From positions 2,463,001-2,527,000 of the forward strand of contig NC_009719.1 of assembly GCF_000017565.1 (NCBI RefSeq): a DNA stretch of 64,000 nt. The letters run 5' to 3'. Below the pieces are notes generated by a model. That model did not search any database. It was not told the origin of the DNA and saw only the letters and a list, made by a program, of their open reading frames with translations. A program made the translations under genes and the position numbers. Every line of letters begins with the position of its first letter. Position 1 is the stretch's first letter. The stretch comes from Parvibaculum lavamentivorans DS-1 (lineage in GTDB: Bacteria; Pseudomonadota; Alphaproteobacteria; Parvibaculales; Parvibaculaceae). Positions 31,195 to 41,578 of this stretch are shown here, one piece after another.

Positions 31195-31271
31195 GGGCCT
31201 GTAGCTCAGTTGGTTAGAGCGGACCGCTCATAACGGTTTGGTCGCAGGTTCGAGTCCTGCCGGGCCCACCA
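31195..31271 (+). tRNA. tRNA with CAU anticodon (Ile2 or Met)
   Basis: The 77-base sequence folds as a full cloverleaf. The acceptor stem is GGGCCTG/CGGGCCC, the D stem GCTC/GAGC, the anticodon stem GACCG/CGGTT with loop CTCATAA (anticodon CAT), and the T arm GCAGG-TTCGAGT-CCTGC. CCA is encoded. CAU may belong to elongator methionine or to isoleucine decoding AUA after lysidine modification; the stem pattern looks more like tRNA-Ile2. Accessory DNA follows directly, so it may mark an island boundary. Confidence 0.92.
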
Positions 31272-32397: not shown

Positions 32398-32407
32398 CAC
32401 CTGCAGG
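32398..32407. repeat. target-site duplication, left copy
   Basis: CACCTGCAGG at 32398-32407 is repeated in the same orientation at 35382-35391. The two copies directly flank the inverted terminal repeats of the insertion element, as expected for a 10-bp target duplication. Confidence 0.75.
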
Positions 32408-32446
32408 CCAGCCGTTCTGGCAACTGGTGGTTTGGACAGGAACATT
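32408..32446. repeat. left terminal inverted repeat of the insertion element
   Basis: Starts CCAGCCGTTCTGGCAACTGG and ends with AACATT near 32446. It pairs with 35343-35381 with a few mismatches and one or two single-base indels. Confidence 0.82.
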
Positions 32447-32540
32447 TTGGCTACATTTAGTGGCGGCCGCCAATTGGCGTACTGTCCGCTGCGCCGACCA
32501 CAAGAAATAAAGATGCGGGGATGGTGTTTTGGGGCTTTTT

Positions 32541-32579
32541 GCCCTGATTTTGGAAGACGACAGACCAAAATCAGCGGGC
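32541..32579. other. strong stem-loop in the element's non-coding left end
   Basis: CTGATTTTGG (32544-32553) pairs perfectly with CCAAAATCAG (32565-32574). The stem is extended by GCC(C) at 32541-32544 and GGGC at 32576-32579. The loop is AAGACGACAGA. It is one of three strong hairpins in 440 bases without a gene. Confidence 0.65.
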
Positions 32580-32659
32580 CTATGGGGATTTGCCAACAGG
32601 TGGTTTCGCACCTATATTGAGACTACTATTCCCCCGGTCGGCTTCGGTCGCCGGGCGCG

Positions 32660-32679
32660 CGGCGGGCAAAAGCCCGCCG
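32660..32679. other. GC-rich hairpin in the element's non-coding left end
   Basis: CGGCGGGC (32660-32667) pairs with GCCCGCCG (32672-32679) around AAAA. It lies about 25 bp before the candidate promoter at 32706. Confidence 0.6.
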
Positions 32680-32705
32680 TTGCTCTACATGCCAGGCATT
32701 AATCC

Positions 32706-32734
32706 TTGACAAAACGAGGAAGATCCCCTAGGTA
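32706..32734 (+). promoter_or_regulatory. candidate sigma-70 promoter inside the insertion element
   Basis: TTGACA (32706-32711) is a perfect -35 box and TAGGTA (32729-32734) follows after 17 bp. It points against the two element genes and toward a strong terminator 90-110 bp downstream. Confidence 0.5.
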
Positions 32735-32740
32735 TTCAGT

Positions 32741-32847
32741 GTCGCAGAGATGGACTTTTAGCGGCAGCTCGCCGGGGAACCGGTTCACACCCAAGAGTGG
32801 AATATCCAAGAAGCGTCCAATTAAAGGCTCCTCCGGGAGCCTTTTTC
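32741..32847 (+). ncRNA. candidate small RNA of the insertion element (about 107 nt)
   Basis: A near-consensus promoter and a strong terminator frame a 107-base segment with no convincing open frame. An internal frame (about 61 codons, reading through the terminator) lacks a good start. The transcript would run opposite to the 176- and 608-residue genes and end just past the stop of the nearer one. Some transposons use RNA from their ends as a guide or as an antisense regulator; which of these, if either, applies is unknown. Confidence 0.4.
32823..32847 (+). terminator. intrinsic terminator, forward strand
   Basis: AAAGGCTCC (32823-32831) pairs with GGAGCCTTT (32836-32844), followed by TTTTC. 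It points rightward and lies 2 bp before the end of the convergent 176-residue gene. Confidence 0.7.
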
Positions 32848-32848
32848 T

Positions 32849-33379
32849 TTATGGGGCGGGCTTTACGGCCTTACCTTTCCACGTGTTGTAAACCAGAACC
32901 CGGAATCGGATTGGCTTTATCTGTCGGACGTAAGGTCGCTCTTCACGCAAATGAGCGGAGCTGATGAAGAGATTCAGCCCTGCCTTTCTGCCGGCCTTCG
33001 ACAAGGTGAAAAAGACCGAGTAGTAGGCGGTTGTTCCGTCCTCTTCCGTTATTTCGAAAACGTAGAAATTCCCGTGGTTGTCGTGAAAGCACTTCCTTTC
33101 ACCCAGGTACCGCACGATATCAGGGAGCATTCTCGACCTGTGATATCGGTCGAAATCAAAAATGCGCGTCTCCCTGTCGTCGCTATAGGCCAAATGATCG
33201 GGAATTTTTTCGCCGGGTTTCACCCCACGTGAGAAACAATGAAGAGAGAAGCGAACATTGATGTTATATCGCTGTTCAGGCTGTCCCTGTTTCGCCGGGA
33301 TAACCATGTCGAATGAAAATGGATGCAGGTGCTCGAGATTGTAAGTCTCACCCTCGCAGTAAAACTCCCTCCATCTCAT
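32849..33379 (-). CDS. hypothetical protein of the insertion element, 176 residues
   Basis: I do not recognise this family. The protein starts MRWREFYCEGETYNLEHLHPFSFD and is rich in aromatic and basic residues, with a central CFSRGVKPGEKIPDHLAYSDDRETRIFDFDRYHRS. It has no membrane segment. It is encoded 45 bp downstream of the transposase-like gene on the same strand and lies inside the same terminal repeats. A role as an accessory transposition protein is therefore likely; a cargo gene for something else is the alternative. Confidence 0.65.
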   Translation of the reverse strand: MRWREFYCEGETYNLEHLHPFSFDMVIPAKQGQPEQRYNINVRFSLHCFSRGVKPGEKIPDHLAYSDDRETRIFDFDRYHRSRMLPDIVRYLGERKCFHDNHGNFYVFEITEEDGTTAYYSVFFTLSKAGRKAGLNLFISSAHLREERPYVRQIKPIRFRVLVYNTWKGKAVKPAP

Positions 33380-33424
33380 TCTCTCGAGACCCCACCGTCC
33401 CTGAAGCTGAAATCTGTGTTCAGC

Positions 33425-35251
33425 CTATATAGGATACGTTGGCGCTTTTGGCATCCAATAGATGATGTCCTCGAATCTCACAGGCCCCTTCGCCAGACCG
33501 AACTTCACCGCCGGTGTGCTCTTGCCGTCTTTCGTGCGGATGTAGTTCGTATAGACATGGAATATCTCGAGCATCTGTAAAACACGCTTCGGGTCGTAGG
33601 CATGATAGCCGCTCCAGAGACGGCTGGCGTTCGAGCGGGTCGGGATGGGGCGCTCAAGATAATTGATTTTCCTCCGCAGACGCATGAAGTAGTTGTCCAC
33701 CGGCGCCAGCGTCGCGCCGGATAGCGTCCAGCCGATGCGCTCCGGCGTCTTGTTGCCGGTATCGGTCAGATAAAGGATGCGGCGCTTCGGCTCGTTTATC
33801 GTGCTCCTGGGATGAGGTATCCAGCGCTTGCGCCAGTCCGGTTCGCTTGAAGCGGCCGCCGCATACTCATCCGCCATGAACTTCACGATTGCTGCCTGCT
33901 CCGTATCGTCGGAAGCTTGTGTGAGCGAGGCAACGACCTTGTTGGACTTGCGCATCAGGTCCTTCTTCTCGTCGATGGTCATCTGCTTCTGGAACTGGAC
34001 GTAAGCCATCTCGGCCTCTTCCATCAGAATCTTCGGCGCGAAGGCGGAGATGAAGGCGGCGCGGAGGACTTCGTCCTGGTCGCTATAGATGGTCGCGTAT
34101 CTGGCGCCCGATACGAAGCGGCGAACGAGCCTGGCATGCGCATAGGCGGTGTAATCGAGATGCGTCATCACGCCGTCGGGCGACAGCTGATTTCCGCGGC
34201 CGGGCAAGTCCGGACGTTCCGGGTCCGGCAGGTTTCGTTCCCATCGGCTCTTCACGGCAATCAGCTCGTCCACCGTCAATGTCTCGCCGTCGAAATCCGG
34301 CCTGACTTCCATCCGCGAGATCCCGGCCATCCGGTCGAACTCCGCATTCAGCCAATATTGCGGCTGGGCCCGGAAATAGCTCCTCGTGCCGGGTGCGAAG
34401 TCACCATTCACGGCCGCGGCGTCTTCAACCTCGGTCTGGTTGATATCGGGGTCGAAGTTGAGGTGATGACCGAGCACGTAGCTGCTATCGGCTTCAACCG
34501 TACAGATGGCGGTGAGCTGAATGTTCTTGCGCGCCGATTTGCTGCGCCAGTTTATCATGTAGTCCTGCCGGTCGACGCAGAGCCGCACGCGTTTTCTTTC
34601 GATGCGATGGGCACGGCTCTCGCGCTCGCCGGCGAACCCCCGGCACTGGCGGTAGAGGAAATCGAGCTTGTCATATACGGCGGCCGCTGAAAGTCCCGTC
34701 ACCTCCATGATGCCGCGGAGCGGCTTCTTCGATACGACTTCGGCAAAGACGGTGCGATTGAGATGAGGTGCCCTCTGCCGCACCGTCGATTTCAACGCTA
34801 CCGAGAAGGTTCTTTGGCAAGCCTTACATCTGAACCGCTGCGCCCCTCCGCGGCTTCCCTGCGACGCATAGGCTTCGGGTCGGGAATACACGCCCACGCC
34901 GGCATTCGCGCAGGCCGGTGCCGGGCACGATGGCTCCGGCCGCGGCTCCAGATAGGCAGAGATGCGAGACATCTCCGCGGCGATTGCCGCATTGCTCTTG
35001 ATTGAGTGGGTTCGAAGGCACCGCTTACATTTGAGGAAGCTATCCGGCGCCAACTTTGCGTCCCCGGACAGAACATAGTCGTCCCGCGCTGCCGGCGCGC
35101 CCGACGAGGGACGACCTCTGGGAACGAACGGCCTGGCCGGATTGCCGAAATTCGAGCAGGTGGGATTGCGGCAGGAATTGACCTGGATATCCCGGAAAGC
35201 GCCGGGAATCCGGGGCATACCAGATGTTGATTTCCGTCCTTGCCCGGCCAT
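33425..35251 (-). CDS. transposase-like protein with N-terminal zinc ribbons, 608 residues
   Basis: The N-terminus has several Cys-pair zinc ribbons: CRNPTCSNFG, CKRCLRTH, CPAPACAN and FRCKACQRTFS. The last resembles the InsA-type ribbon of IS1 relatives and is followed by a helix-turn-helix-like PLRGIMEVTGLSAAAVYDKLDFL. A core with candidate acidic residues comes next: RLCVDRQDYMINWR for the first Asp, and YATIYSDQDEVLRAAFISAF, which resembles the second Asp strand of DDE recombinases. Its position between terminal inverted repeats makes a transposase role likely. I could not fix the third acidic residue. The family is not one I can name. Confidence 0.72.
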   Translation of the reverse strand: MAGQGRKSTSGMPRIPGAFRDIQVNSCRNPTCSNFGNPARPFVPRGRPSSGAPAARDDYVLSGDAKLAPDSFLKCKRCLRTHSIKSNAAIAAEMSRISAYLEPRPEPSCPAPACANAGVGVYSRPEAYASQGSRGGAQRFRCKACQRTFSVALKSTVRQRAPHLNRTVFAEVVSKKPLRGIMEVTGLSAAAVYDKLDFLYRQCRGFAGERESRAHRIERKRVRLCVDRQDYMINWRSKSARKNIQLTAICTVEADSSYVLGHHLNFDPDINQTEVEDAAAVNGDFAPGTRSYFRAQPQYWLNAEFDRMAGISRMEVRPDFDGETLTVDELIAVKSRWERNLPDPERPDLPGRGNQLSPDGVMTHLDYTAYAHARLVRRFVSGARYATIYSDQDEVLRAAFISAFAPKILMEEAEMAYVQFQKQMTIDEKKDLMRKSNKVVASLTQASDDTEQAAIVKFMADEYAAAASSEPDWRKRWIPHPRSTINEPKRRILYLTDTGNKTPERIGWTLSGATLAPVDNYFMRLRRKINYLERPIPTRSNASRLWSGYHAYDPKRVLQMLEIFHVYTNYIRTKDGKSTPAVKFGLAKGPVRFEDIIYWMPKAPTYPI

Positions 35252-35288
35252 TCCGCCTCACGAAGATATCTTCGCGATCCAATGAAAA

Positions 35289-35317
35289 GCGGGACAGCCG
35301 CCAAGTGGCTGTCCCGC
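35289..35317. other. hairpin near the right end of the insertion element
   Basis: GCGGGACAGCC (35289-35299) pairs perfectly with GGCTGTCCCGC (35307-35317) around a 7-base loop. It sits between the transposase-like gene start and the right inverted repeat. It may block read-through transcription into the gene or act in the transposition complex. Confidence 0.6.
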
Positions 35318-35342
35318 CTGTCACTTTAGACAGAGTTTCGGG

Positions 35343-35381
35343 AATGTTCTACCCAAAACCACCAGTTACCCGAACGGCTGG
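35343..35381. repeat. right terminal inverted repeat of the insertion element
   Basis: Reverse complement starts CCAGCCGTTCGGGTAACTGG and matches the left repeat at 32408. Confidence 0.82.
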
Positions 35382-35391
35382 CACCTGCAGG
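35382..35391. repeat. target-site duplication, right copy
   Basis: CACCTGCAGG, identical and in the same orientation as 32398-32407. Confidence 0.75.
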
Positions 35392-35449: not shown

Positions 35450-38400
35450 TCAAAAGCGGATGGAAACTTTCGCCTTCAGCCCATGGTCGCGGCTGTCGGA
35501 GGCGAATTCACCGCGATAGGAAAACTCGAGCGTCGTTTCCTCGGCGATGAGAAGTTCGACCCCGCCGCCGATGGAGGCGACGTCCTCGGAGAGGGGTGTG
35601 CCGCGAACCGAAAAGGTGGTAGCGGGCGAGCTTGCGAAAGAGGCGCGGGAAAGGGGCTCGACATCGCCGAAAACGTGACGCCAGGAGGCTGAGCCGAAAA
35701 GGGTGAGGGAGCCCGCCTCGCGCGCGGCGCGCAGACCGAGCTCAGAGATGCCGGTGGTGTTGCTGGAGGAGGCGATGGAAAGCGCCGACGGCCCGCCCGT
35801 CTCGGTGAAGGCTTCCGTCTCGACATGAACGACGGCGAGGCCCGCGAAAGGCGTCAGGGTGACGGGACCCGCTGCGAGATCGACGGAAGCCTCACCCGAT
35901 GCCTGGAAGGTGTGGGCGCCGTAGTCCGCCGAGAGATCGTCGATGACGCCGCCGACGACGACACGGCGGCGGCTTTCGGCCATCTGGTAGCTGTAACCGA
36001 GGACGCCCTTCAGGTCCATGGGACCGAGTTCGGTTCCCGCATAGCCCGCGACATGGAAGTTGTCGCTTTCGCCCGAGGAGGCGCGCCCCGAGACGTCAAA
36101 GGTGGCATGGCTGTAGCCGAGCGCGATACCGATGCGGCTTGCCTCGCCGATCTCGCGATCAACGCCGCCGAGGAAGCCGGTCGAATTGCGCTCGATGCCC
36201 GCCGCCGACACCGACCCGTCCGTCTCGCCCCAGCCGCGGACGAGTTCTCCCCATACCGTATAGCCATGCGGCGTCTCGTCGCCCGCCGCCGGCACATAGC
36301 CTTCCGCCGCCGCGAAGCCGCGCGGCGCGCCGAAGCGCGAGAAGAGACGGGAGAAGATCGTCCGCCGGACGATCCCGGCGGAGCTGGAAAAGACGCCGGT
36401 CGAGCTTGCATGCGCCTCGCCCGAGAGCGCGTCGAAGGCCGCTTGCGCCTCTTCCTCCGACATGCCGATGATCTCGTCATAGAGGGGGTTACCGGCGCCG
36501 AGCGCCTCGGCCGCGGCCGCGACGCCCTGCTGGTTCGGCGTCGACGCCACATCCTCGAAGGCCGCCATCTGCGTGAGGATGAGGAAGACGTTGGTGGCGT
36601 CGTAGGAGACTTCCGGCATGAGGAAGGCGAAGCCCGCCGTGACGCCGTCGAAGACGCCGCTGATGCCGCCATCGGCGGTGAGGATCCGGTAGGTGGTGGA
36701 GGGCGCATAGGTGATGCCGTCATCCGTGCCGTTCGCCGGCGCGACCTCGACGACCGCGCCGCTCGCGATCGTCGCCGCGCCCGTCACATGGACGAAATCG
36801 GCATTGACGCCCGCGGCGTCGCCGCCGTCATTCACCTCGACCGCGAGGACAGAACCGGCAGAGAAGGCGAGATCGCCCGCGACGGTGAGCGTGCCGATCG
36901 AATTGCCCGCCGCGAGCGTCGCGCCGCCGCCGAGCGTGGTGCTGCCGACCGTGCCCGAACCGCCGAGGAAGCCGCCCGAGACGAGAAGGCCGCCCCCGAA
37001 GGTGCCGTCGACGACGAGGCTGCCCGACAGCACCTCCAGGCCGCCCGTGAAGGCGCCGCTGATGCCGGAGAGGACGAGGCTCCCCGCGCCGGACTTCACG
37101 ATGTCGCCGTTGCCGGACAGGACGCCCGCATAGGTGCCGTCCGCCGACTGGTCGAAGAGGAGGCTCGCATTGTTGACGATGTCACCCTGAAGGCTCGACG
37201 TGTTGCCCGCGAGCGTACCGCCGGAAACCGTGGTGCCGCCGGTGTAGCCGTTCGCGCCGGTGAGCGTGAGCGTGCCCGCGCCGGTCTTCTCGAGGCTGCC
37301 GGTGCCCGAGACCGCGCCCGCATAGGTGCCGTCGCCCGCCTGCGCGAAGACAAGCGCCGCGTCGTTGACGATGTCGCCGGTGAGGCTCGACGTGCTGCCT
37401 TCGAGCGTGCCGTGCCGGATCGTCGTACCGCCTGACCAGCTATTCGCGCCGGTCAGGGTCAGAACGCCGGAACCGGACTTCACGAGACTGCCCGTGCCAG
37501 ATATGACGCCGCCGAACGTGCCGTCGAATGCCTGCGTGAAGGCGAGCGTGGCATTGTTCACGATATCGCCGACGAGGCTCGACGTGCTGCCTTCGAGCGT
37601 ACCACCGGAAATCGTCGTGCCGCCGGTGTAGCTGTTCGCGCCGGTCAGCGTCAGTTCTCCCGTTCCCGTCTTTTCGAGACCGCCCGTTCCTTCGATCGCG
37701 CCCGCGAAGTTCGTGAACGTGTTGCCGCTGCCGACGGTAAGCGTCGCGCCGCCGAGATCGATCGTGCCGCCGGTGCCCGACAACTCGGACATGGAAAGAT
37801 CGAAATCGTTGAGGTCGAGCGTGCCGCCATCGACCGTATAGGCGCTGCCGTCGACGAAGGCCGACGCGGCGCCCGCGCGCAGCGTGCCGCCCGAAACCGT
37901 CGTGCCGCCAGTGTAGCTGTTCGCGCCGGCGAGGGTGAAGGAACCCAGGCCCGTCTTTTCGAGGCTGCCGATACCTGAGATCACGCCCGCAAAATTCGCG
38001 TCCGTGTTGCCGCTGCCGACCGCGAGCGCCGCGCTGCCGAGATCGACGGCACCGCCGATGCCGGAGAGCTCGGACATGGAAAGGTCGAAATCGTTGAGGT
38101 CGAGCGTGCCACCATTCACTTCGTAGCCGCCGGAGGTGAATGCGCCGACGCGGCCCGCGCGGAGCGTGCCGCCCGAAACGGTGGTGCCGCCGGTATAGGT
38201 GTTCTCGCCGGTCAGGATGGTGGTGCCGGAAAGATGAAGCACTTCGCCGGCGCCGGAAACATCGCTGGAGAAGGCATGGTCATCGTCGAGATGATTGAAG
38301 ACAATCTGACCGGTACCCGCACCAAATTGCAGGCTGGCGGCATTCAGTGTGCCGGCCGCGACGGCGGCATCGCCTTCCGCCGCACCGATATTGAGGGTGC

Positions 38401-40798
38401 CGGTGGCGCCGGAATGATGCGCGACACGGACTGTGCCGCTGCCGGCCCCTACATTGACAGCGGCTTCGCCGGCAACGGTCAGGACACCAATCGCGCCATT
38501 GTACTCGCCGCCAACATAGAGGATGCCGGAATTGTCGAGTTTCGATCCTGTGCCGGTGACAGTCATGGCGCCCTCACCATTCGTGCCTGCGCCGATATAG
38601 CCTGTGCTTGTATTCGTCACGGCGCCACCTTCAGACACGATCAGGCGCCCGACGCCCTCATCGCCAATCCGAAGCAAGCTGGTGCTGTTGACCTGCGATC
38701 CGGTTCCGGTGACACGGATCGCTCCGTCCGAACCCGAAAGATGCCCGGCAATGACAACATCGGCCGTCACAACGCCGCCATTTTCGACGTTCAGTGTTCC
38801 CTCACCGAGCTCTCCGACAAGCACACTGCTGTCGGTGTCGAGCGAGGCTCCCGCACCAGTCACCGTGACTTCACCCACCGTATGGGCCAGATCTCCGATG
38901 ATGACGTCGTCGGACGACTCCACAGAGCCGCCGTCGAGAGCAAGCGTCCCCTCACGTATGGTGGTGAGGCCCGTATAGGTGCTCCCGCCCGTGAGGGTGA
39001 GCATACCGGAGCCGAGCTTCAGGAGGCTTCCCGCGCCCGAGATGATGCCGCCGAAGACCCCGTCGCTGTCCTGATCGACTTCGAGTTCGGCGCTGCCGAG
39101 ATCGACGGTACCGCTTGCACCGGAAAGTCCGGAGGCGGAAAGATCGAAGTCATTGAGGTCGAGGGTACCGCCGTTCAAGATGTAGGCGCCGGAGACGAGA
39201 GCGTCGGCACTGCCGGCACGCAGCGTGCCGCCGGAAACAGTGGTGGTGCCTGTGTAGGTGTTCGCGCCGGTGAGCGAGAGGATGCCCGCGCCGGACTTCA
39301 CGATACCGAAGCTGCCGCCCGTCTCGCCGATATTGCCGGACTGGGTGGCGGAGCCGGTGGTGACGTTGAGGGTCGCCTGCGCCCGCAAGTCGATGTCGTT
39401 CGACAGGTCGATGCCGTCATCATAGTCGAGGGTGCCGCCGGTGACGGTGAGTGCGCCGGTGCCAATGGCATCGTCGTCTTCGAGGCGGAGCGTACCCTCG
39501 CCGAGCGTTGTGCCGCCGGAATAGGTGTTCGCGCCGGTCAGCGAGAGGATGCCGGAACCGAGCTTCACCAGACTGCCCGCACCCGCGATGAGGCCATCGA
39601 AAACGGAGTCGCCGTCCTGGTCGACTTCGAGTTCGGCGGTCCCGAGATCGACCGTTCCGCCCGTGCCCGAGAGTTCGGTTGCGGTGAGGTCGAAATCGTT
39701 GAGATCGAGCGTACCGCCATTGACCGTGTAGGCGGCGTTGGCGGAAAGAGCGCCCGCCGCGCCCGCGCGCAGAATACCGCCTTCGACCAGAGTGCTTCCC
39801 GACCAGCTATTCGATCCGGAGAGGTTGGTGGTGCCCGCGAGCTGATGTACGCCGCCATTGCCCGAGATGGACGGAGCGAAGGTGTAATCCGTTTCCGTAT
39901 GATTGAAGACGAGCGTACCGTCGCCCGCCCCGAACACAACACTCTTTGCCTGCAACGATCCCGCCGCGACGGCGGCATCGCCTTCCGCCGCGCCGATATT
40001 CAGCGTGCCGGTGGAGCCGGTCGATTTGGCGACATTCAGATTCCTGTTGCCATTGTTTATGTTGACCAGGCCGTCATCCGCGATCGTCAGGATACCCGTC
40101 GCGTCGTAATTGCCTTCGGCACCGCCGAGATTGATCTCATAGTTACTGTTCCAGGTCGAACCTGAACCAGTCACCGTTACGGTACCGAGCGAGCCGTTAT
40201 ACTGGCTCATATATGTAGAATAGGGGGTGGTCAGCGTTCCGCCGTCCTCGATGAAGATATGGCCGACGCCCGTGTAGGCGCCGACAAAGAGGCTCGACGA
40301 AGTGGATATCCCGGACCCGGCGCCACGGATGGTTGCGGTACCGCTGAAGCCATTATATCCGAAGAGCTCAAATACACCCGCATTCAGCGTACCGCCGCCC
40401 TGCACGATGAGCGAACCGTCCTGCGCGGCGGAGCCGATATTGGTGCGGCCAGAGTCCGCCACACTGACACCATCGACAGTCGCGGCGACCGGCCCTTCGA
40501 TCTTCGTCGTTCCCGAAGTGTTGACCGGCAGACCGTTTGACCAGTTGGCTGCGTTGTTCCAGTCGCTGTCGGCAGCGCCCGTCCATGAGGTATCCGCGCG
40601 GGTGGGGGCTGGAAGAAGCGCGAGGCTAACACCCGCGAGAAGGGCGGCAACGCCGACGCTGGAGAGGAGACGCCGCGTCAGATTGCGTCGGAGGATGACG
40701 GGTGGCACAGCCTTGCGCCGCAGACGCATGAAGCGCCAAGTGGTTACACGCATGGTGCGCCGCCCTGTCGCTACCCGATTTCCGCTTGCCACGCCCAT
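35450..40798 (-). CDS. large autotransporter with beta-strand repeats (type V secretion)
   Basis: From the ATG at 40798 the protein has about 1,782 residues; ATGs at 40753 and near 40729 are alternative starts. The signal peptide core is LLSSVGVAALLAGVSLALL with cleavage after PTRA. The passenger (to about residue 1,500) is a string of autotransporter-associated beta-strand repeats such as LTGANSYTGGTTVSGGTLR and DLNDFDLSMSELSG, expected to form a long beta-helix on the cell surface. The last 270 residues are the outer-membrane beta-barrel, beginning near YTVWGELVRGWGET and ending in the C-terminal Phe of SIRF. It is divergent from a LuxR-type regulator gene. The function is probably adhesion or biofilm. 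Confidence 0.9.
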   Translation of the reverse strand: MGVASGNRVATGRRTMRVTTWRFMRLRRKAVPPVILRRNLTRRLLSSVGVAALLAGVSLALLPAPTRADTSWTGAADSDWNNAANWSNGLPVNTSGTTKIEGPVAATVDGVSVADSGRTNIGSAAQDGSLIVQGGGTLNAGVFELFGYNGFSGTATIRGAGSGISTSSSLFVGAYTGVGHIFIEDGGTLTTPYSTYMSQYNGSLGTVTVTGSGSTWNSNYEINLGGAEGNYDATGILTIADDGLVNINNGNRNLNVAKSTGSTGTLNIGAAEGDAAVAAGSLQAKSVVFGAGDGTLVFNHTETDYTFAPSISGNGGVHQLAGTTNLSGSNSWSGSTLVEGGILRAGAAGALSANAAYTVNGGTLDLNDFDLTATELSGTGGTVDLGTAELEVDQDGDSVFDGLIAGAGSLVKLGSGILSLTGANTYSGGTTLGEGTLRLEDDDAIGTGALTVTGGTLDYDDGIDLSNDIDLRAQATLNVTTGSATQSGNIGETGGSFGIVKSGAGILSLTGANTYTGTTTVSGGTLRAGSADALVSGAYILNGGTLDLNDFDLSASGLSGASGTVDLGSAELEVDQDSDGVFGGIISGAGSLLKLGSGMLTLTGGSTYTGLTTIREGTLALDGGSVESSDDVIIGDLAHTVGEVTVTGAGASLDTDSSVLVGELGEGTLNVENGGVVTADVVIAGHLSGSDGAIRVTGTGSQVNSTSLLRIGDEGVGRLIVSEGGAVTNTSTGYIGAGTNGEGAMTVTGTGSKLDNSGILYVGGEYNGAIGVLTVAGEAAVNVGAGSGTVRVAHHSGATGTLNIGAAEGDAAVAAGTLNAASLQFGAGTGQIVFNHLDDDHAFSSDVSGAGEVLHLSGTTILTGENTYTGGTTVSGGTLRAGRVGAFTSGGYEVNGGTLDLNDFDLSMSELSGIGGAVDLGSAALAVGSGNTDANFAGVISGIGSLEKTGLGSFTLAGANSYTGGTTVSGGTLRAGAASAFVDGSAYTVDGGTLDLNDFDLSMSELSGTGGTIDLGGATLTVGSGNTFTNFAGAIEGTGGLEKTGTGELTLTGANSYTGGTTISGGTLEGSTSSLVGDIVNNATLAFTQAFDGTFGGVISGTGSLVKSGSGVLTLTGANSWSGGTTIRHGTLEGSTSSLTGDIVNDAALVFAQAGDGTYAGAVSGTGSLEKTGAGTLTLTGANGYTGGTTVSGGTLAGNTSSLQGDIVNNASLLFDQSADGTYAGVLSGNGDIVKSGAGSLVLSGISGAFTGGLEVLSGSLVVDGTFGGGLLVSGGFLGGSGTVGSTTLGGGATLAAGNSIGTLTVAGDLAFSAGSVLAVEVNDGGDAAGVNADFVHVTGAATIASGAVVEVAPANGTDDGITYAPSTTYRILTADGGISGVFDGVTAGFAFLMPEVSYDATNVFLILTQMAAFEDVASTPNQQGVAAAAEALGAGNPLYDEIIGMSEEEAQAAFDALSGEAHASSTGVFSSSAGIVRRTIFSRLFSRFGAPRGFAAAEGYVPAAGDETPHGYTVWGELVRGWGETDGSVSAAGIERNSTGFLGGVDREIGEASRIGIALGYSHATFDVSGRASSGESDNFHVAGYAGTELGPMDLKGVLGYSYQMAESRRRVVVGGVIDDLSADYGAHTFQASGEASVDLAAGPVTLTPFAGLAVVHVETEAFTETGGPSALSIASSSNTTGISELGLRAAREAGSLTLFGSASWRHVFGDVEPLSRASFASSPATTFSVRGTPLSEDVASIGGGVELLIAEETTLEFSYRGEFASDSRDHGLKAKVSIRF

Positions 40799-40945
40799 GA
40801 TCGGTCCCCACAGCCCGTCATTGAAGAAAATCACGGGCATAATCAGCGGCGGGCGGGCTGGACGACAGATGTACAGGTGTACAGGTGCCATTAACCACGG
40901 CCATGGATAGACTCGCCTCCATGGCGGCATAAGGGGACGGGAAGC

Positions 40946-41578
40946 TTGAGCGCAGAACGCATCATCGTGGCCGACGACCATCCGGTTTTCCGGATGGGGA
41001 TGCGCCATATCCTGGCGCGTGTTTCGCCTGGAGCCGCGATCGAGGAGGCAGGCACGTTCGAGGAAGTGCTGACACTGGCGGAGAGCGGCGCGGCGCCGGG
41101 CATGTTCGTGCTCGACCTCATTTTTCCGGGGTTTGCCGCAGAGACCTCCATCGCGGCGCTGAGGCGGCGCTTCCCGCGCGCGACACTCGCCATCGTCTCG
41201 ATGGCGGATGACAGCGAAACCATCGACGTGGTGATGGCGGCGGGCGCGGACGGTTTTGTCGGCAAGGCGGTACCGCCGGACGAGATCGCGGAGGCGATCG
41301 GCGCGATCCATGACGGCGAGATCGTGGTGAAGTCCGCGGCTGCGCATCTACCGACGCCCGGCGGCGCAAGGACGGGCGCGGGCGAAAGCGACGTGCAGCT
41401 TTCGCCGCGCCAGCGCGAAGTGCTGAAGCTCGTCGCAGCGGGTATGACCAACAAGGAGATCGGGCGCGAACTCGGCATCTCGCCTGTGACAGCGCGGATG
41501 CATGTATCGGCGCTGCTTCGGACACTCGGTGTCGCCAGCCGCTCGGCGGCGGCGGGCGTGGCGATGAAACTGCTTTAG
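40946..41578 (+). CDS. LuxR/NarL-type response regulator
   Basis: The 210-residue regulator uses a TTG start at 40946 with AAGGGGACGGGAAGC upstream. The receiver domain (about 5-120) has the acidic pocket Asp10-Asp11, the phosphoryl-accepting Asp57 in FVLDLIFPG, and Lys107 in FVGKAVPP. The DNA-binding domain (about 148-208) reads [44 protein letters not shown]. It is convergent with a hybrid histidine kinase 4 bp away, its likely partner. It is divergent from the autotransporter gene, its likely target. Confidence 0.92.

Follow-up and report, generated by a model that had tools for sequence, protein, structure and literature searches.

A transposon of Parvibaculum lavamentivorans DS-1 from a family distantly related to IS1 with a preference for terminator-like hairpins

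The insertion sequence IS1 is a short element with GGTGATG-like ends and a target duplication of 8-10 bp, and elements of the IS1595 family duplicate 8 bp. Group IIC introns insert at the stem-loops of terminators; they are retroelements, without inverted ends or a DDE transposase. Terminator targeting by a transposable element is itself already known: IS1272 and TnSha1 (IS1182 family) insert into terminator hairpins and are reported to do so with partial deletion of the target hairpin, apparently by blunt cuts and with no duplication (PMC4923244). Here we describe an element of 2,974 bp located at positions 32408-35381 of a 64,000-nt stretch (the window; G000:C1:2463001-2527000) of the genome of Parvibaculum lavamentivorans DS-1. 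The element is very probably a complete transposon from a broad family with a distant relationship to IS1; most of the recognisable members sit in hairpins that resemble intrinsic terminators.

Like IS1 (NF033558), the element encodes a transposase with an N-terminal zinc ribbon and helix-turn-helix (HTH) and a C-terminal YN...TPAM block, and it has a duplication of 9-10 bp; unlike IS1, the transposase is a protein of 608 aa in one frame that scores far below the NF033558 cut-off, the ends are of the form C[CAT]AGCC, and a cargo slot and terminator targeting are found. With the IS1595 family (PF12762) the element shares a similar N-terminal zinc-binding domain (NF050000), but PF12762 is absent and the duplications are of 9-10 bp instead of 8 bp. 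Terminator hairpins are the targets (31 of 40 sites), as for IS1272 and TnSha1; in contrast to what PMC4923244 describes, the top of the hairpin is duplicated here over 9-10 bp, by what would be staggered cuts. Group IIC introns are similar in their insertion at terminator stem-loops and differ from the present element, which has inverted ends and a transposase.

Ends, duplications and distribution of the family

A search for inverted repeats between 32200 and 35600 gave, as the longest pair, two arms of 40 nt (32407-32446 and 35343-35382) with 83% complementarity. The terminal inverted repeats were placed at 32408-32446 on the left, cargo side, starting with CCAGCCGTTCTGGCAACTGGTGG, and at 35343-35381 on the right, transposase side, starting with CCAGCCGTTCGGGTAACTGGTGG on the minus strand. 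They are bordered by a perfect direct duplication of 10 bp, CACCTGCAGG, located by direct-repeat search at 32398-32407 and 35382-35391. Two open reading frames (ORFs), both on the minus strand, are enclosed: the transposase gene (33425-35251, 608 aa), assigned from the ORF, NCBIfam, alignment and profile comparison, and a cargo gene for a protein of 176 aa (32849-33379). Imperfect repeats of about 40 bp, a 10-bp duplication and two proteins of these sizes had been reported in the initial annotation, and all were found again.

The genome (3,914,745 bp, one contig) contains a single copy of the element. Three further copies were found in genomes of the same genus (L005-L007), with the same ends (at most three mismatches in the first 22 nt), with transposases 89-92% identical to that of the window and with perfect 10-bp duplications of their own, GCCGCGAGGC, CGTTCTCCGG and GCCTTCGGGT. 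Because these copies share the ends and each has its own duplication, the ends and the duplication in the window are not due to chance. Parvibaculum provides the nearest named relatives of the window transposase. In the genome G028 the flanks of the window element lie 3 nt apart with no element between them, an empty site whose alignment extends over no more than 76 bp on the left (79%) and about 800 bp on the right (69%). Copies with the same ends and different duplications, and empty sites in related strains, were the checks that the initial annotation had proposed, and both were found. With the ends, the perfect duplication and the three copies, its description as a complete insertion element is supported; the window element is a real, complete transposon that was probably once mobile.

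A pattern-based scan of one genome per species (84,980 species) yielded 123 relatives, of which the best 80 were kept. The transposase was matched by 123 of 72,556 plasmid records, 85 of these from Enterococcus. Among 398 genomes of the phylum some match was obtained in 35, near full-length in only six, the present genome included; several of the remaining matches covered mainly the zinc-binding region. No relatives of either window protein were found among viral contigs. In the records examined, the relatives are annotated as 'hypothetical protein' or 'insertion element protein' or are unannotated, and no paper describing the family was recognized by title or abstract among the top matches in open-licence PMC text, which is weak evidence. 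The relatives apparently form a broad, unnamed transposon family, as assigned without comparison with ISfinder. Eight genomes of one genus (L171-L178) encode a relative of about 500 aa, covering profile positions ~11-416 and in several cases accompanied by a separate C-terminal piece, which is possibly a shortened or domesticated lineage.

The ends were sought in 88 loci: 80 from genomes, six from plasmids, the window and a paralogue in the same genome. A wide search, with the left end up to 1,500 bp out, produced many spurious best matches, and a stricter search was used instead, in which acceptance combined repeat, score and duplication. This accepted 41 of the 88 loci (35 of the 58 with both flanks available) and none of 171 mismatched pairings of flanks from different loci; L031 was dropped as a duplicate of L030, leaving 40 elements. 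The left end was C[ACT]AGCC in 35 of the 40, and TAAGTAG in Gram-positive elements. Duplications were perfect in 38 (9 bp in 16, 10 bp in 15 and 11 bp in seven, the 11-bp ones being ambiguous at the end base) and had one mismatch in two. The smallest accepted element has 1,886 bp; 14 of the elements are shorter than 2.15 kb and 26 are longer.

Target sites of the family

Target sites were rebuilt by joining the flanks with one copy of the duplication. Most of the rebuilt sites look like intrinsic terminators, for example that of L026, aaaaaaagggag-GCCTCGCGGC-ctcccttttcc, and at most of them the 9-10-bp duplication covers the loop and the upper stem. One fixed hairpin score was applied, with 7,809 positions drawn at random from these loci as control. 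Within 5 nt of the centre of the duplication, 31 of the 40 sites and 3.5% of the controls scored at least 7, and 26 sites and 0.33% of the controls at least 9; when the centre was narrowed to 1.5 nt, the values were 28 of 40 and 1.1%. At 28 of the 31 sites the midpoints of hairpin and duplication differed by at most 1 nt, and 16 of the 31 have 4-nt loops. A T tract was present on the right at 31 sites, an A tract on the left at 29 and both at 23, against 17%, 18% and 4%.

The same hairpin score was reached by nine of twelve sites found later, after the idea had been formed; in this set L181, which duplicates L035, was excluded, and L187, the same G023 locus, was counted once. Two of the twelve (L163 and L164) are insertions of a 3,276-bp dfrG element common to Staphylococcus and Listeria plasmids, both at terminator-like sites and with 9- and 10-bp duplications. 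This dfrG element, found with an 'insertion element protein' on plasmids of Enterococcus (L020), Staphylococcus and Listeria, is a member of the family; its ends differ, and the identity between its transposase and that of the window is about 23%. Comparison of the sites with the controls shows, at the level of sequence, a strong preference of the family for terminator hairpins, the loop lying at the middle of the duplicated stretch. On target preference, as on the exchange of cargo (see below), the initial annotation had been silent.

The window element is inserted shortly behind the stop codon of an adjacent gene, which encodes a 1,965-aa repeat-rich, autotransporter-like protein (35450-41347) and ends 68 bp from the element. 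DNA resembling the 3' end of this gene occurs in 20 of the 27 genomes of the genus, the present one included. The empty site of G028 has a 7-bp stem, TTGCGGG/CCCGCAA, and in our reading the window duplication aligns with its 3' arm and not with the loop, which places the window insertion in the 3' arm of this hairpin.

These observations could be accommodated by a transposase of about 600 aa, with zinc ribbons and HTH, that would bind inverted ends of about 25-40 bp and join them to the target by cuts staggered by 9-10 bp. The transposase would itself recognize a hairpin or a palindrome, and terminators would be landing sites that spare genes. Tentatively, this DDE enzyme might pick its targets not by sequence but by structure, which could be an extruded hairpin or a paused, terminating transcription complex, and duplicate the loop. 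It is equally conceivable, if short of probable, that a symmetric double-stranded palindrome is read and that terminators are struck as common GC-rich palindromes. Symmetric palindromes are described targets of some other DDE elements (IS10, IS231), the duplications found here are near-palindromic and several sites have no T tract on the right (L090, L093 and L098, for example); yet no consensus in primary sequence was seen by eye, pairing extends well past the duplication, with stem scores up to 15, and the sites show a strong excess of A and T tracts. Very unlikely, by comparison, is an explanation by survival, in which insertion occurs anywhere and insertions in terminators persist because they spare genes. 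Intergenic insertions are indeed tolerated and terminators are intergenic, but survival predicts no centring to a single base such as that seen at 28 of the 31 hairpins, and in a control of 25 IS1595-type loci from genomes of the same class only one of the six elements with a perfect 8-bp duplication was at a hairpin.

Several points weigh against targeting of hairpins. Nine of the 40 sites are weak (L030, L032, L035, L037, L067, L083, L022, L023 and that of the window, whose hairpin score is only 3), and three of the twelve later sites (L185, G026 and one of the two G034 sites) stay below the score. The IS1595-type control is small. No ends were accepted in 47 of the 88 loci, several of which are contig ends or shortened copies, and the counts cover recognisable elements only; they are not corrected for kinship, L070 and L071 being, for instance, one element at two sites. 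Recognition of a hairpin is, moreover, not separated by these sequence comparisons from recognition of a double-stranded palindrome.

If true, the preference would mean that a transposon family that is widespread, and for the most part unannotated, lands in terminators and so spares genes, and would explain why cargo as variable as restriction-modification, toxin-antitoxin, metal-efflux and dfrG genes can be found directly behind genes. A choice of target by structure would represent a DDE enzyme with structure-guided targeting, open to testing, and would point to safe harbours for these elements in hosts ranging from Alphaproteobacteria to Enterococcus.

Transposase, leader and relationship to IS1

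The transposase contains cysteine pairs at residues 27/32, 75/78, 109/114 and 142/145. Its residues 131-199 matched the NCBIfam IS1 model NF033558 (model positions 12-79 of 199) with E 1.2e-5 and 25.4 bits, the cut-off being 100, and the IS1/IS1595 zinc model NF050000 with E 1.2e-4; three relatives scored 22.6-28.3 bits with the IS1 model. No useful Pfam matches were obtained for either window protein. PF12762 had no match in the transposase at E<=1 and none in the genome at E<=0.001, and no IS1182 models were among the transposase matches at E<=1. A PDB profile search with the transposase gave almost only zinc-finger chains among the best 60 of 163 matches.

Profile comparison with nine IS1-like transposases aligned the last 53 columns with 85.7% probability (E 5.5e-6), the C-terminal block YN...TPAM being common to both; the HTH was weakly aligned (4.8%) and the middle was unaligned. 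With IS1595 transposases, the N-terminal block, a third of the protein reaching to the first conserved Asp, was aligned (54.5%). The hint of a distant IS1 relative in the initial annotation is borne out by the model and profile matches, from which the element is judged to be distantly related to IS1 without being a member. Its placement within the IS1 family itself, as a divergent member, appears unlikely: the zinc ribbon/HTH block, the C-terminal block and the 9-10-bp duplication would fit, but the score falls far short of the cut-off, the transposase is much longer, the ends are different, a cargo slot and terminator targeting are present, and the N-terminal block also fits IS1595.

In an alignment of 61 relatives D227, D519 and E487 were conserved in all and D391 in 60. 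Judged from this conservation, D227, D391 and D519 are the putative catalytic DDD triad, with the invariant E487 as an alternative catalytic candidate. In the protein of the Gram-positive branch, N stands in the column of D519; this argues against the triad or reflects a difference of that lineage or of the alignment.

In the leader that separates the terminal repeat from the transposase gene, folding identified a hairpin on the minus strand, GCGGGACAGCC...GGCTGTCCCGC (35281-35325), with a fold z of -5.67 and none of 200 shuffles as good. Stems with a score of at least 8 were found in the leaders of 33 of the 40 elements and in 9% of shuffled leaders; a T run follows 15 of the 33 and an A run precedes nine. 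The leader hairpin may limit read-through into the transposase gene. The leaders of L023, L079, L081 and L084 contain boxes resembling TACTG-N10-CAGTA (9-10 of 10 matches); of 1000 shuffled leaders, 22 attained the lower mark of 7. We take this to be the form of a LexA box, and the location of these sequences near the likely promoter suggests SOS-controlled transposition in this subgroup.

Cargo and a second family member in the genome

The cargo protein, given as of unknown role in the initial annotation, does exist with its 176 residues, and by profile it is a relative of YjaZ/HtrC: residues 3-172 matched NCBIfam PRK09717 with E 4.3e-10 and 39.9 bits, below the cut-off of 324. It is thus related to Escherichia coli YjaZ/HtrC, although far below the family cut-off. 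A homologue on an Agrobacterium plasmid is 61.9% identical, and 187 plasmid records match the protein. No match was obtained in a PDB profile search and no PADLOC model fits; for the function of E. coli YjaZ/HtrC nothing stood out among the top literature matches. In E. coli, yjaZ (L162:3075-3826) directly follows rpoC and the terminator-like hairpin of that gene, and no inverted ends were seen there by eye. On a plasmid of 2,462 bp (L021) the sole sizeable annotated gene codes for a YjaZ-like protein.

The gene behind the transposase varies among the same-genus copies: YjaZ/HtrC-like in L005, an NYN-domain gene in L006, and a RelE-like toxin gene with an HTH gene in L007. Part of the ORFs in the cargo regions were tested, 26 proteins with Pfam, ten with PADLOC and 16 with NCBIfam, some of them from elements outside the 40 (L041, L048 and L094). 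The cargo includes a BsuBI/PstI-type restriction-modification pair (L035), N6-methylase proteins (L037 and L052), AbiEi/AbiEii (L039), a C5-methylase with a partner that matches Eco29kI below the cut-off (L094), and HSDR_N (L041), GNAT (L085), Sel1 (L088) and BRCT (L048) proteins; several proteins had no match. From these comparisons, the remainder of the element, past the transposase, is a slot for exchangeable cargo, occupied in relatives often by restriction-modification, toxin-antitoxin or resistance genes. Given the company of restriction-modification and toxin-antitoxin-type genes, the cargo may have a role in defence or maintenance.

YjaZ/HtrC-like proteins recur in four elements (the window, L026, L083 and L091), the last three recognized by pairwise and multiple alignment and not by the family model, and such recurrence might indicate an accessory factor required for transposition instead of a passenger. 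This is highly improbable: the 14 elements below 2.15 kb are too small for such a gene, unrelated genes occupy the same place in other copies, and tblastn found no transposase relative in three plasmid regions with a YjaZ-like gene.

The paralogue in the same genome is a metal-efflux transposon of 19.55 kb, interrupted and outside the window, at G000:C1:3600723-3718570, behind a gene that we take from its sequence to be rplI. Its right end was not found within ~9 kb because that end is 117.8 kb away; a pattern search located the matching end pair, 117,848 bp apart and with a perfect 10-bp duplication, CTCCTCGGGG. In four relatives without the large insertion (L199-L202) the flanks lie ~40-90 bases apart behind rplI, with an intact hairpin between them.

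A single giant transposon of 117.8 kb was ruled out by comparison with G023 and G026, where the 19.55-kb element occupies different sites and is flanked in each genome by a perfect 10-bp duplication particular to that site. The element is 99.87% identical between G023 and G026, and 99.97-99.98% between G023 and the parts in the present genome; this near-identity in three species and at three sites argues for recent movement. In the present genome it is split by an insertion of ~1.1 kb and a segment of ~97.1 kb, which alignment overlap indicates to be bordered by 20-bp direct repeats. The segment encodes TraI-, TraG-, TraC- and TraD-like conjugation proteins and a tyrosine integrase, and for this reason looks like an integrative and conjugative element (ICE). 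Genes for an RND efflux pump and for one P-type ATPase belong to the cargo of the 19.55-kb transposon; another ATPase gene was read by eye, and it is this one that the ICE-like segment splits.

In the window element, a terminator-like hairpin found by folding, AAAGGCTCC-TCCG-GGAGCCTTT (32823-32844), lies just beyond the cargo gene, with a T run behind it on the plus strand. Its fold z was only -1.83, with 11 of 200 shuffles equally good, and it may function as a terminator. A tRNA with anticodon CAT is located at 31195-31271, 1.1 kb to the left of the element.

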